Assembly: GCF_000422745.1 (NCBI RefSeq)
Contig: NZ_AUGQ01000006.1
Location: forward strand, 62,001-126,000
Direction: 5' to 3'
Length of the DNA stretch: 64,000 bases
From: Microbacterium gubbeenense DSM 15944
Lineage (GTDB): Bacteria > Actinomycetota > Actinomycetes > Actinomycetales > Microbacteriaceae
Part shown: positions 7,840 to 23,156 of the stretch, piece by piece
How the letters are laid out: each line of letters begins with the position of its first letter
How positions within the stretch are numbered: position 1 is the first letter of the stretch
Notes under the pieces: model-generated
Database searches by the model: none
What the model saw: the letters and a program-made list of their open reading frames with translations, nothing else
Told to the model about the DNA's origin: nothing
Program-made: the position numbers and the translations under genes

Positions 7840-7900
7840 CCTTCATTTCTGGCACTTTTCTACACGCAATTGCGTGTAGAAAAGTGCCAGAAATGAAGGG
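7840..7900. repeat. palindromic repeat copy 1 (60-bp perfect palindrome)
   Basis: Bases 7840-7899 read the same on both strands: arm CCTTCATTTCTGGCAC, a 28-bp core TTTTCTACACGCAA and its complement, then GTGCCAGAAATGAAGG. It begins 10 bp after the stop of the Nudix gene ending at 7910, so it could act as its terminator. The arms are shared with the copies at 9856 and 10998; the 28-bp core has the same length but different sequence. Confidence 0.85.
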
Positions 7901-7909
7901 AAGTCGGCG

Positions 7910-8329
7910 TTAGATGCCCGCGGCGCGGAGTGCGGGGAGGATCCGGGTCGTCATCAGCGGCGCCAGGTCGGCCGACGGCGGACCTTCCGTCGCGACCCAG
8001 CGGATCTCCTCGATCTCGGCAGCCGGCGTCGTCACCTCGACGGGCGGGTGCGTGAACACCGTGCCGCGCACGACGTAGCCGTCCTCGTTCGCCGCGGGCG
8101 CCTCGAAGACGCCGAGCAGCCGCATCCGCGCAGGATCCAGCTCGACGCGCAGCTCTTCGCGCACCTCGCGGATCGCCGTGTCGACGGCGCTCTCGCCCGG
8201 ATCCGGTTTGCCGCCCGGCTGCATGAACATGCTCGTGCCGCGCTTGCGCACGGCGAGCACGTGCCCCGTGCGCGGGTGCCGGATGACGACGGCGCTCACG
8301 CGGATCCGCTTGAGCTCGTGATCGATCAT
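7910..8329 (-). CDS. Nudix hydrolase, first of a coupled pair (downstream gene)
   Basis: A 139-residue Nudix pyrophosphohydrolase. The Nudix box is GGKPDPGESAVDTAIREVRE followed by ELRVE: the G-x5-E-x7-RE-x2-EE spacing is kept, but the usual glycine after the EE pair is replaced by arginine. The ATG at 8329 is used because it overlaps the stop of the upstream Nudix gene as ATGA and begins the conserved strand MIDHELKRIRVSAVVIRHP; the longer frame upstream is an overlap artefact. Substrate unknown; small proteins of this type often clean damaged or signalling nucleotides. Followed 10 bp after its stop by palindromic repeat copy 1. Confidence 0.85.
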   Translation of the reverse strand: MIDHELKRIRVSAVVIRHPRTGHVLAVRKRGTSMFMQPGGKPDPGESAVDTAIREVREELRVELDPARMRLLGVFEAPAANEDGYVVRGTVFTHPPVEVTTPAAEIEEIRWVATEGPPSADLAPLMTTRILPALRAAGI

Positions 8330-8799
8330 CGATCGAACCGCGCGGATCCCTCGTGAACGAGCGCCTCGCGGATCCGCTCGCGCATATCGTCGTTGACGCC
8401 CGCCGCGGCAATCTCGTCGATCGGGCACCACCATGCGCGCGTGTTCTCGCCGTCGGCGGGGTGCGGATCGCCGCCGTCCGCCGAGCAGCGCACGACGATG
8501 TCGAGGTACTGCGCGCGGTCGCCGTTCGCGTACGTCATCGGCGGGAGCGCGTGCACCCAGACGATCGCCTCGGCGCGCGCGCTGATGCCGGCCTCCTCGG
8601 CGACCTCGCGCACGGCGGCGAGAGTCGGATCTTCGCCGGGATCCACGATTCCAGTGACGGGCGTGACCAGGCCGTTGTCGGCGCGCTCGACGAGCAGCAC
8701 CTCATCGCCCTTCACAACGACGGCCGTCACGCCGATGAGCCAGAGCAGCTCGTGGCCGACCTTCTCGCGCAGGCGCAGGACGAAATCGGGTGTCGACAT
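8326..8799 (-). CDS. Nudix hydrolase, first gene of a coupled pair
   Basis: A 157-residue Nudix protein with an intact box, GIVDPGEDPTLAAVREVAEE followed by AGI. The start MSTPDFVLRLREKVGHELLW and the pattern WLIGVTAVVVKGDEVLLVERADNGLVTPVTGI resemble actinobacterial MutT-like NUDIX proteins. It sits directly upstream of a second Nudix gene with a 4-nt ATGA overlap, so both are made from one message. No known substrate can be assigned from sequence. Confidence 0.87.
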   Translation of the reverse strand: MSTPDFVLRLREKVGHELLWLIGVTAVVVKGDEVLLVERADNGLVTPVTGIVDPGEDPTLAAVREVAEEAGISARAEAIVWVHALPPMTYANGDRAQYLDIVVRCSADGGDPHPADGENTRAWWCPIDEIAAAGVNDDMRERIREALVHEGSARFDR

Positions 8800-8844
8800 G
8801 GTTCGACCCTAAGCCCGTCGTGGGGGCGCACTAGGCTTATCGAG

Positions 8845-9426
8845 GTGAGCTTCGCGTCAACACCCACCCTGCAGAACGACCGCGTGCGCCTGGAGCCGCT
8901 TTCCCCCGACCACGCCGAAGACCTTGTCACCGTCGTTTCGGACGGCGACCTGTGGCGCACTTGGTACACGAGCATTCCGCGGCCAGAGAATGTGTCCGCC
9001 GAGATCGACGCGCGACTCGTCCGCCAGCAGGCCGGAGAGATGGCGCCCTGGGCGATCATCGATCGTGAGACAGATCGTGCCGTGGGCATGACGTCGTACT
9101 GCAATATCGACGAGGCGAACCGCCGGGTCGAGATCGGGTACACGTGGATGGGGCGACAGACGCACGGCACGACGATCAACCCCTCGGCGAAACTATTGTT
9201 GCTGTCGCGGGCGTTCAACGATCTCGGATGCATCGCGGTGCAATTCTTGACGCATTGGCATAACCGTCAGTCACGCGCGGCGATCGAAAAACTGGGCGCC
9301 AAACAGGACGGCGTCCTGCGCAACCATCGGGTCATGCCCGACGGTCACATCCGCGACACTGTCGTCTTCTCGATCATCGAAGGCGAATGGCCGGCCGTTC
9401 GCCGCGGCCTCGAAGCGAGGATCTGA
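8845..9426 (+). CDS. GNAT family N-acetyltransferase (RimJ/RimL-like)
   Basis: A 193-residue acetyltransferase of the RimJ/RimL type, which acetylates protein N-termini or small amines from acetyl-CoA. Visible are NDRVRLEPLSPDHAEDLVTV, GMTSYCNIDEANRRVEIGYT, and the acetyl-CoA region followed by LTHWHNRQSRAAIEKLGAK and DGVLRNHRVMPDGHIRDTVV. The GTG at 8845 is chosen over the far upstream ATG because TAGGCT (8832-8837) ends 7 nt before it and because translation before it would run antisense through the Nudix gene. Its TGA overlaps the ATG of the next GNAT gene. Confidence 0.88.
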   Translation: MSFASTPTLQNDRVRLEPLSPDHAEDLVTVVSDGDLWRTWYTSIPRPENVSAEIDARLVRQQAGEMAPWAIIDRETDRAVGMTSYCNIDEANRRVEIGYTWMGRQTHGTTINPSAKLLLLSRAFNDLGCIAVQFLTHWHNRQSRAAIEKLGAKQDGVLRNHRVMPDGHIRDTVVFSIIEGEWPAVRRGLEARI

Positions 9427-9851
9427 TGGTCGTCGCTATTCGCCCGCTCAATGATTCCGACATCGACGCGGTGATCCGGTTATGGGAGACCTCCGGCCTG
9501 ACGCGTGAGTGGAACGATCCGCGCGCCGACATCGCCCGCGCCCGCGCCGTGTGGCCCGACTTGCTGCTCGTCGCCGTCGACGGCGACGCGGTCGTCGGAT
9601 CCGTTATGGCCGGATACGACGGACACCGCGGCTGGCTGTACTACCTCGCGACGGAACCGTCGTCGCGCGGGCAAGGGGTCGGATCCGCTCTCGTCGCGGA
9701 AGCGGAGCGCCGGCTCGGCGAGCTCGGCTGCCCGAAGGTGCAGCTCATGGTGCGCCGCGAGAACGCGCAGGTCCTGTCGTTCTACGACGCGCTCACCTAC
9801 GCCCCGAGCGACGTCGAGGTCTACGGCAAGCGCCTGAACGCGGTCCCCTGA
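9426..9851 (+). CDS. GNAT family acetyltransferase (YpeA-like)
   Basis: A 141-residue single-domain GNAT protein: AIRPLNDSDIDAVIRLWETS, the acetyl-CoA pocket LATEPSSRGQGVGSALVAEA (the Q/RxxGxG/A motif as RGQGVG), KVQLMVRRENAQVLSFYDAL and the end DVEVYGKRLNAVP. It closely resembles the YpeA group of unknown substrate. The ATG at 9426 shares its A with the stop of the preceding GNAT gene, so coupling is likely. Palindromic repeat copy 2 starts 5 bp after its stop and ends exactly where the convergent gene's stop begins. Confidence 0.86.
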   Translation: MVVAIRPLNDSDIDAVIRLWETSGLTREWNDPRADIARARAVWPDLLLVAVDGDAVVGSVMAGYDGHRGWLYYLATEPSSRGQGVGSALVAEAERRLGELGCPKVQLMVRRENAQVLSFYDALTYAPSDVEVYGKRLNAVP

Positions 9852-9855
9852 CCCT

Positions 9856-9929
9856 CCCCAACCCTTCATTTCTGGCACGATTCTTCATCGATTTGCATGG
9901 TGAAATGTGCCAGAAATGAAGGGTTGGGG
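9856..9929. repeat. palindromic repeat copy 2 (74 bp)
   Basis: Left arm CCCCAACCCTTCATTTCTGG plus CAC (9856-9878), 28-bp core (9879-9906), and a perfect inverted right arm (9907-9929), 23 bp each. It exactly fills the space between the stops of two convergent genes (9851 and 9930), where a bidirectional terminator would sit. The core is nearly the reverse complement of the core in copy 3 (three differences), so the two copies are the same element in opposite orientation. Confidence 0.88.
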
Positions 9930-10895
9930 TCAGAGGTGCGACGGGAGGGTGCGGAGCAGATCTCGCCGTGCAGGGCGGACCTCGGCGACGCCCGCGGTCC
10001 GGAGGACATCCCGCAGCTTCTCCGGCCGTCGCACGTCGTCCCATGCCCAGCGCGCGATGCCGCGCACCTGGCGGCGGAGTGCATCCTCTCGACGCTTCTC
10101 CGCCCATACCTGTTGCTCCGGGCCGGCCCCGTTCAACGAGTACTTCGCGCGTCCGTCCGCCTCGCCGATCACGTCCGCGCTGCGCCAGTAACAATCCGAG
10201 CGCACGATCGAACCGCCTCCGATCTCGAACTCCACCTGCAGCTCGGGGCGCTCGAAGCCGAGCCATTCGATCACGCAGAGCGACGCCGACTCGAGTGCGG
10301 TTTCGGCCAAGGGCGTCGCGGTCGCCAGCGGCCATCGAGCAGCGGCCCGCCCGCGCCGGCTGAGCCTCTCGTCGTTGGTCGCGAGCAGGACGTCGGGACT
10401 CATCCCTGATCGGCGAACCAATGCATCGGCCGCGGCGCGCGCGATCACGGGGTGGTGCGTGCGGGCGAGGTCCACGATCGTGTCGCTCGGTGACGTCGCC
10501 GCGATGCCGGGCTCGACGACGACGTCGGGCTCGTCGCTCGTGTGGTGCCACTGGATGTCGCCGGTGCGGCGGGAACCGCCCGACCGTTTCGCCCGCGCAT
10601 GGAGGTGATACGGCATTCCGAGCGTCGGCAGCCCCCAGAGCGCGGCCGCGGATTCGTGCATGAACACGGTGTGCGGCGACTTCATGGCGAACGCGTGGAT
10701 CCGCGCGAGATAGCGGCTCCACGGCGGCAGCGCTTCCCAGCCGTCGGTATCGACGTATACGCCGCTGCGGATGCGATGCAATCGCCCGACGCGGACGGCA
10801 TGGTCGAACCGCGTGCCGGATTCCGCACGTCGGATCAGAGCGATCGGCGGCGGCTGGATCGCGAGAGTCGAGAGCGGCGGATCCTGAAGTCTCAT
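9930..10895 (-). CDS. AbiEi-antitoxin-like protein with nuclease-like C-terminus, orphan
   Basis: A 321-residue protein with no toxin partner. The first 200 residues resemble the AbiEi-type antitoxin/transcription factor proteins common in Micrococcales: a wing-like start, HAVRVGRLHRIRSGVYVDTD, HTVFMHESAAALWGLP and PSDTIVDLAR. Residues about 215-290 (ESASLCVIEWLGFERPEL, then DVIGEADGRAKY) resemble the DUF559/Vsr-like fold with a possible E-x-D-G-x-x-K active site. The expected neighbour AbiEii nucleotidyltransferase is absent on both sides. Function is not known; in related genomes such genes occur as scattered singletons. The ATG at 10895 lies 100 bp from palindromic repeat copy 3. Confidence 0.6.
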   Translation of the reverse strand: MRLQDPPLSTLAIQPPPIALIRRAESGTRFDHAVRVGRLHRIRSGVYVDTDGWEALPPWSRYLARIHAFAMKSPHTVFMHESAAALWGLPTLGMPYHLHARAKRSGGSRRTGDIQWHHTSDEPDVVVEPGIAATSPSDTIVDLARTHHPVIARAAADALVRRSGMSPDVLLATNDERLSRRGRAAARWPLATATPLAETALESASLCVIEWLGFERPELQVEFEIGGGSIVRSDCYWRSADVIGEADGRAKYSLNGAGPEQQVWAEKRREDALRRQVRGIARWAWDDVRRPEKLRDVLRTAGVAEVRPARRDLLRTLPSHL

Positions 10896-10997
10896 CTATC
10901 GATCGTGACGCCGTTCACGCTTCTGAGTCCGAACTGCGAACAACTCATGCGGATCCGCGATTGTGAGCGACGTGTCGACGTCAGGCCGCCCCGTCAC

Positions 10998-11063
10998 AAC
11001 CCTTCATTTCTGGCACATTTCACCATGCAACTAGATGAAGAATCGTGCCAGAAATGAAGGGTT
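10998..11063. repeat. palindromic repeat copy 3 (66 bp)
   Basis: Arms AACCCTTCATTTCTGGCAC (10998-11016) and its complement (11045-11063) enclose a 28-bp core (11017-11044). The core matches the reverse complement of the copy 2 core except at three positions. The right arm overlaps the stop codon of the CPBP gene (11062-11064), so it again sits exactly at a gene's 3' end. Confidence 0.88.
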
Positions 11064-11796
11064 AGGGGAGGTAGGGGGCCGCCAGCGGGTAGCCGACGAA
11101 GGCGAACACATCCAGCAGCGTGTGGGCGATCACCAGGGGCATCACGCGCCGCCACTTCAGGTACACCCATCCGAAGACGAGGCCCATCACCATGTTGCCC
11201 AGCGCCATCGCGGGGCCCTGGTAGAGGTGATAAAGGCCGCGCAGCGCCGCCACGGCGACGAGCACGCGCCACCCGGATCCCAGGCGTTCGAACAGGTATC
11301 CGTTGAGGATGACCTCCTCGAGCAGACCCGCGCGCACGGCGGAGAGGAGGAGCAACGGGATCGTCCACCACGCGGCGTCGAGCTCCGACGCCTGTACCTG
11401 GAGCGTCAGCCCCATAAGGCGGCTGATCGCATACAGGCCGAGCCCGGGGATCCCGATCGACGCCAGCAGCAGAACCGCTGTTCCCACGTCGCGCCCGAAC
11501 CGCGAGAAGTTCAGCCCGATGCGCTGGAACGCGCTCTGCGCCGGTCGCCACAGCAGGTAGATCACGAGGGCGACGAGCGCGAGATCGAAGAACACGTCGA
11601 AGACCCGGTAGATCGCATCCCAGATCGCCTGATCCGCCTGCGACGGGTTGAGCGCCGTCGCTTGTTCGGACAGCGGCGCGGTCATGAGCGATCGGATGAA
11701 GGACAGCACCGAGTACACGGCCGATCTGCCGATCGACAGCGCGAGCACGATGCCGACCTCCCAGCCGAGGCGAGCTCGTGAGATGTCGGTGGTCAC
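11062..11796 (-). CDS. CPBP-family intramembrane protein (Abi/CAAX protease-like)
   Basis: A 244-residue membrane protein with about seven helices. The CPBP motifs are in order: EEVILNGYLFERL (motif 1, usually EExxxR), LRGLYHLYQGP (motif 2, FxxxH-like with the metal-binding histidine) and AHTLLDVFAF (motif 3, HxxxB). In motif 1 the arginine is replaced by asparagine, so protease activity is uncertain although the glutamates and histidines are kept. Family members process prenylated proteins, or bacteriocin precursors, or give self-immunity. The start is GTG at 11796, in a 39-bp divergent gap with the PH-domain gene. Its stop lies inside palindromic repeat copy 3. Confidence 0.82.
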   Translation of the reverse strand: MTTDISRARLGWEVGIVLALSIGRSAVYSVLSFIRSLMTAPLSEQATALNPSQADQAIWDAIYRVFDVFFDLALVALVIYLLWRPAQSAFQRIGLNFSRFGRDVGTAVLLLASIGIPGLGLYAISRLMGLTLQVQASELDAAWWTIPLLLLSAVRAGLLEEVILNGYLFERLGSGWRVLVAVAALRGLYHLYQGPAMALGNMVMGLVFGWVYLKWRRVMPLVIAHTLLDVFAFVGYPLAAPYLP

Positions 11797-23117: not shown

Positions 23118-23156
23118 AGAAGAGGGCCGGATCCGTATGGGATCCGGCCCTCTTCT
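23118..23156. terminator. strong bidirectional terminator
   Basis: A perfect 17-bp stem, AGAAGAGGGCCGGATCC (23118-23134), a 5-nt loop and the complement (23140-23156), ending in TCTTCTTCT on the plus strand. It sits 21 bp after the DUF3117 stop and 11 bp from the stop of the convergent O-methyltransferase gene. Confidence 0.9.

Follow-up and report, generated by a model that had tools for sequence, protein, structure and literature searches.

Within a 64,000-nucleotide stretch of the Microbacterium gubbeenense DSM 15944 genome (contig NZ_AUGQ01000006.1, positions 62,001 to 126,000 of the forward strand; hereafter the window), three long palindromes with a common arm sequence lie between genes, and two of them stand at either end of a gene predicted to encode a DNA-binding nuclease. 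Our subject is the relationship between these palindromes and this gene. In window coordinates, the features are as follows.

7840-7899: palindrome copy 1, solo, upstream of nadA; a perfect 60-bp inverted repeat, its two 30-nt arms 100% complementary and without a loop
7856-7883: 28-bp core of copy 1, perfectly self-complementary
9856-9929: palindrome copy 2, flanked by the stop codons of two convergent genes; putative downstream end of the nuclease-gene unit
9879-9906: 28-bp core of copy 2
9930-10895, minus strand: gene for a predicted DNA-binding nuclease of 321 aa, AbiEi-like and Vsr/I-Bth0305I-like; the candidate trans-acting factor
10998-11063: palindrome copy 3, putative upstream end of that unit; the start codon of the nuclease gene follows after about 102 bp
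11017-11044: 28-bp core of copy 3, in the opposite orientation to the copy 2 core and with 2 differences

All three palindromes are built on one arm, CCTTCATTTCTGGCAC, which together with its complement flanks exactly 28 bp in each of the three, in coordinates and sequence just as the original prediction had described. Copies 2 and 3 are mutually inverted over 82 nt if their flanks are included (91% complementary). That they carry the same core in opposite orientation stands; the three differences said to separate these cores reduce to two when core 2 is set against the reverse complement of core 3, and the self-complementarity claimed for the copy 1 core is perfect on re-checking. The location at gene 3' ends was likewise seen correctly: copy 1 adjoins the 3' end of a NUDIX gene (7910-8434, minus strand), copy 3 overlaps the stop codon of a CPBP gene (11062-11796, minus strand), and copy 2 is exactly the gap between the stops of a GNAT gene (9387-9851, plus strand) and the convergent nuclease gene, whose neighbours are GNAT and CPBP. 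No part of the window matches Rfam above gathering score (0 matches).

Nor are these the only copies in the genome, a possibility that the original prediction had named as part of what would refute its idea of a spreading palindromic element. The exact 16-nt arm has 17 matches in the 3.02-Mb draft genome, compared to 0 for a reversed control pattern, and a genome-wide search for paired arms with up to 3 mismatches finds 14 elements on nine contigs, 11 of them with a core of 28 bp and 3 with a core of 27 bp. Every arm match with at most 1 mismatch is one side of a pair, and in the alignment of the 14 copies the paired arms span 58-60 bp. Among 84,980 named species genomes, the exact paired pattern matched 55 stretches, which belong exclusively to Microbacterium halotolerans, M. 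halophytorum, M. suaedae, Candidatus M. stercoravium and 'Frigoribacterium sp. JB110'. A viral origin is rejected, the exact-arm pattern matching 0 viral contigs. Across 366 genomes of the genus, a covariance model gives 10 strong matches and 1 weak match, and a less strict pattern, based on the TTTCT-SS frame common to the arms, picks out 9 genomes holding 5-25 copies apiece, along with a single control hit. When compared by eye, arm sequence is species-specific but its frame of 5-mers is kept, reading AACTC-TTC-ATTTC-TGGCAC-ATTTC here and AAGTC-CAC-ATTTC-TCCGAC-ATTTC in G128; two near relatives that had seemed negative, G129 and G057, do have palindromes, in further such arm sequences, or dialects.

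Occupancy of individual sites varies as well. Copy 1, present here at the nadA-NUDIX junction, is missing from the same junction in the nearest relative, G341, so that the search for empty sites proposed along with the original prediction has yielded one; this filled and empty site, the 14 genome copies and the patchy occurrence in the genus support the claim of spread. Other copies are shared between species: JB110 and M. halotolerans have 15 sites in common, with flanks ~73-95% identical, arms identical at 450/450 positions (in part by construction, because loci were retrieved via exact arms) and cores identical at 372/425. At one such pair of sites (L088/L063) a solo core has been flipped in place, the flipped alignment matching at 28/28 positions versus 24/30 for the unflipped.

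What protein might act on these sequences? The original prediction had stated that no transposase is near. This is right for the REP-associated tyrosine transposase (RAYT, where REP stands for repetitive extragenic palindrome), whose domain, PF01797, was found in none of the 26 genomes searched (10 in which the pattern or the model had detected elements, and 16 others; the same search matched 5 of 14 control genomes), but the predicted DNA-binding nuclease gene between copies 2 and 3 was overlooked. Homologs of this gene are present in 315/366 genomes of the genus, 94/150 of the family and 41/99 of the order. Neither Pfam nor NCBIfam has a family for the 321-aa protein at cut-offs (there is one sub-threshold Pfam row, E 0.15), and a sequence search of the PDB gives 0 matches. 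AbiEi models in PADLOC match residues ~21-184 (best E 2.3e-10). An AlphaFold2 model has a mean predicted local distance difference test score (pLDDT) of 94.0 and a predicted template modelling score (pTM) of 0.91. Aligned to it by VIA-align 2, with scores somewhat over the level that tool calls common, are AbiEi (6y8q, Z 10.3), I-Bth0305I (3r3p, Z 9.6, root-mean-square deviation (rmsd) 2.8 over 94 residues, model 199-305), Vsr (1cw0, Z 8.1) and NGO0050 (3hrl, Z 9.0). E202, Q220, D234, E245, D247, G248 and K251 are invariant in 83 aligned sequences (the window protein and 82 of 92 listed homologs). Judging from the model, the N-terminal part resembles AbiEi and the C-terminal part resembles the I-Bth0305I/Vsr endonuclease fold; as far as predicted fold and residues go, a catalytic domain with the acidic and lysine residues of the EDxHD/Vsr type is present.

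Evidence linking gene and palindromes comes from the surroundings of other homologs. We searched 98 distinct homolog loci for palindromes, with thresholds of 44 bp in length and 15 in score and with 300 bp as the upstream region; these loci are not a random sample, comprising the top-scoring places and 39 distinct hand-picked others, and they are related by descent. A palindrome lies upstream in 28/97 loci and around the stop codon in 28/97, so that 45 of the 98 loci have at least one (27/49 in the genus, 18/49 in other genera) and 11 have both. Control stretches 600-900 bp away in the same loci have one in 0/95 and 1/97 (1/192 together), gene bodies in 0/98 and dinucleotide shuffles in 0/484; at nadA control loci the counts are 1/30 and 0/30, the single case being copy 1 of the window. 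Position is specific, too: upstream palindromes mostly lie ~95-175 bp ahead of the start codon and downstream ones 0-20 bp past the stop or slightly overlapping it, with lengths typically of 57-74 bp and often 67. A perfect 68-bp palindrome is found, for example, upstream of a homolog from another genus (L266, 1285-1352).

Each gene, moreover, has a dialect of its own. In all 11 loci with two palindromes, these match each other best (rank 1 of 11; mean self score 47.1 versus 8.4 for cross comparisons), and paralogs within one genome differ (L281, L282 and L283 in G452; L304 and L305 in G067). Dialect similarity rises with protein identity (Mantel rho 0.26, 44 loci, 0/999 permutations), and the 6 gene pairs with more than 65% protein identity all have dialect scores of 27-67. 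Outside the family, a flanking palindrome is present in 8/27 order-level loci, three of which (L353, L363, L365) have a matching pair. The gene in G043 (L214), to take a further case, is flanked by its own dialect at 1281-1339 and 2460-2512 (TCCACAAGTCTTCACCGAGTCC...). On these sequence comparisons we regard the association of gene and palindromes as practically certain.

Association need not mean mobility. For AbiEi and Rv2827c, repression of the protein's own promoter via 23-bp inverted repeats is described (PMC3985639, PMC7319586), and the AbiEi-like protein might likewise regulate itself via the upstream palindrome, while downstream and dispersed palindromes would be bidirectional terminators or roadblocks, copied by rare duplication and gene conversion. 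The 15 orthologous sites common to JB110 and M. halotolerans are old copies, as such a scenario would have it, and the elements are strong hairpins (RNA folding z-scores of -8.5 to -11.6) that favour gene ends. Setting aside 7 copies at locus edges, both neighbouring genes were called for 85 non-redundant copies; these genes are convergent in 32 cases, codirectional in 47 and divergent in 6, and the TTTCT motif of the element is within 5-30 bp of 79/111 gene 3' ends. These orientations, like those for the second dialect and the genes compared near nadA below, come from a crude home-made open reading frame (ORF) caller based on third-position GC content (GC3), whose errors are included: at least one divergent case, copy 1 (L005), is miscalled, since NUDIX is on the minus strand, and its 'g1' near nadA differs from the CPBP gene located there by a separate search. 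Yet none of the hairpins is followed by a T-run and a terminator scan called no element, which sets them apart from canonical intrinsic terminators. (A separate GC-rich 39-bp hairpin at 23118-23156 of the window, AGAAGAGGGCCGGATCC..., with a similar one in G129 (L176, 19485-19524), is probably an ordinary terminator-like hairpin.) Solo palindromes may still insulate or terminate transcription. As a full account, however, the immobile scenario appears unlikely, leaving as it does three things unexplained: patchy presence, copies missing at a homologous junction and, as described next, the replacement of the gene together with both palindromes.

Genomes G252 and G086 (L321 and L325) have nuclease genes that are 44% identical amid neighbouring ORFs that are 91-99% identical. 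Examined by eye, DNA homology between the two genomes gives out just beyond the palindromes, at a distance of ~20-35 bp on the left and ~5-20 bp on the right (the G252 palindromes are below the finder threshold and were identified by eye), and G100 has the same version of the gene as G252. As read from these alignments, the gene and its two palindromes have been exchanged as one unit between G252 and G086. Solo palindromes, in turn, recur in a second dialect. Sampled over 200 kb, G160 and G031 show 67-bp palindromes of the family type solely as a pair around the gene. Genome-wide, the arm pattern of this second dialect has matches in four of 149 genomes: 20 in G025, 13 in G031, 8 in G157 and 3 in G361. 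Among 20 stretches from the G025/G031/G157 set, 12 contain a total of 13 palindromes and 8 yielded none under the filter; 7 of the 13 are convergent, 5 codirectional and 1 divergent, with 12 at a gene 3' end and none beside a homolog of the nuclease gene. At the level of sequence, the window's pattern of dispersed copies is repeated independently in the second dialect.

Allelic replacement of the unit, in combination with a catalytic fold that in the model is homing-endonuclease-like, raises another possibility, namely that solo palindromes serve as landing pads. The nuclease would cut a palindrome without a gene, and repair templated by a palindrome-gene-palindrome copy would bring the gene in; recombination between the two palindromes would eventually remove it again and leave a solo behind. 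Near nadA, 12 of 20 genomes examined have it between CPBP and gcvP (7 of these 12 show one palindrome at a score of at least 13, none both); in G152 CPBP and gcvP are 2.1 kb apart without the gene, and six other genomes have no CPBP there. The gene also decays, being in two pieces in G128 (L389, L392), divided between two reading frames and interrupted by a stop in G057 (L388, L391) and reduced to an 81-residue remnant in G129 (L390), while none was found in the draft genome G341; in G129 and G057 the relics lie between or near palindromes, as homing followed by gene loss would have it. Against this, no relative was seen with the gene at a solo site, most solo sites in the two dialects have no gene nearby, and in G008 CPBP and gcvP lie end to end with overlapping stops and with neither nuclease gene nor palindrome. 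We consider homing into solo sites distinctly improbable.

Finally, a transposase that is unrelated or has since been lost might have spread the palindromes as passive miniature elements, their nearness to the gene being incidental. The patchy distribution speaks for this, as does the finding that at the threshold used most homologs are without a palindrome. Position-specific bracketing, the pairing of dialect with gene and the controls all speak against incidental nearness, and RAYT, the only transposase class searched, is rejected as the mobiliser by its absence from all 26 genomes. This explanation strikes us as hardly credible.

We favour a system in which the AbiEi-Vsr-type nuclease itself, a kind of enzyme not known to act in this way, drives the spread of palindromes, much as in a REPtron, and put the probability of this at roughly 0.6. 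Copies, bracketing, gene-specific dialects, unit replacement with breakpoints just outside the palindromes and empty sites can all be read from sequence; DNA binding, cleavage, the direction and chemistry of spread and any effect on transcription we infer. Palindrome, nuclease gene and palindrome would form a small genetic unit, the palindromes being both its two ends and the cognate sites of its protein, and solo palindromes would be non-autonomous copies of the unit's ends, spread with help from the nuclease and surviving mainly at gene 3' ends, where they would do least harm. The AbiEi-like N-terminal part would bind each arm (direct 5-mers ~19 bp apart within the arm, with the two arms ~28 bp apart in dyad), a dimer would occupy the ~60-bp palindrome, the Vsr-type domain would nick or cut there, and repair or copying would then carry either a solo palindrome or the complete unit into another site, new or allelic. 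In S. agalactiae, AbiEi recognises inverted repeats of 11 bp spaced by N27, which can be extended to repeats of 23 bp spaced by N3 (PMC3985639), and the target on which I-Bth0305I forms a dimer is nearly 60 bp long (PMC3943268). The N27 spacing approximates the N27-28 found here, and the I-Bth0305I target the length of the palindrome; the simplest joint reading would be that the protein binds its own palindromes as a dimer.

A number of observations weigh against such a protein-driven system. Foldseek gives nothing at E <= 0.001 for the model (top row AbiEi-like Rv2827c, E 0.042), and the VIA-align 2 alignment with AbiEi (6y8q, Z 10.3, model 18-194) has an rmsd of 5.9 over 163 residues. More than half of the homolog loci (53/98) have no palindrome at threshold, and just 11 have both; bracketing either decays or is not universal. 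G043 has two dialects in one genome, its own bracketing pair and dispersed copies of the window dialect. No target-site duplication is evident at the filled and empty site compared with G341, a single pair with divergent flanks. No multicopy near-identical unit was found, and the gene behaves as a single-copy locus; the one candidate, in G499, consists of identical loci (L319, L320) near both ends of one contig and is likely an assembly overlap. Palindromes persist in G128, G129, G057 and G341 with the gene broken or not found, and none was found beside the G128 relic. This pattern of decay fits a cycle of invasion, spread and decay, and equally shows that persistence of palindromes needs no gene.

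How palindromic repeats spread without ordinary transposases is an open question that has been studied almost exclusively via the RAYT class of enzymes. The present case ties palindromes to another predicted nuclease, one common in actinobacteria, and the many natural pairs of enzyme and site make recognition, cleavage and spread testable. If true, our proposal would also assign a role to a protein family that has no name in Pfam or NCBIfam. No earlier report pairing such a nuclease gene with palindromes appears in titles or abstract openings of the papers retrieved from the non-subscription literature.

Several known systems share part of this arrangement. IS200/IS605 insertion sequences likewise have a gene bordered by palindromic ends (PMC8266576), but use another class of enzyme and, unlike anything found here, a multicopy unit. 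AbiE type IV toxin-antitoxin systems combine an AbiEi-like DNA-binding fold, the fold predicted here, with long inverted repeats at a spacing of N27 versus N27-28; by contrast, the window gene adjoins GNAT and CPBP rather than an AbiEii nucleotidyltransferase toxin, and has an extra predicted nuclease domain, a second palindrome past the gene and dispersed copies at gene 3' ends. With the Vsr-like EDxHD homing endonuclease I-Bth0305I the protein would share its catalytic-domain fold and a target length near 60 bp, comparable to that of the palindromes; the gene here is outside any intron, between two complete palindromes, and cleavage is predicted.

Closest is the REPtron, described in PMC8266576 and PMC3116915 as a single-copy nuclease gene with bordering cognate palindromes, dispersed intergenic palindromes and co-evolution of enzyme and repeat; REP or REPIN sequences are there joined to the HuH tyrosine transposase TnpA-REP, or RAYT. 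A gene bordered by cognate palindromes plus dispersed copies is also found here. Yet the defining HuH TnpA-REP gene (Y1_Tnp, PF01797) is replaced by a protein predicted to combine AbiEi and a Vsr-type nuclease, copies number in the tens rather than hundreds, and the elements are 58-74 bp long with long exact arms and no conserved GTAG in the 14-copy alignment, whereas REPs are defined as short, of 20-50 nt, with GTAG in front (PMC8266576). The system would work like a REPtron and is not one, because the defining HuH transposase was not found in the 26 genomes. Tentatively, and at slightly less than even odds, we suggest that it represents a distinct class of selfish or domesticated element, in which an AbiEi-Vsr-type nuclease gene has long palindromic ends as recognition sites, a dialect swapped as a block and scattered solo palindromes, an actinobacterial counterpart of RAYT/REPIN with an unrelated enzyme.

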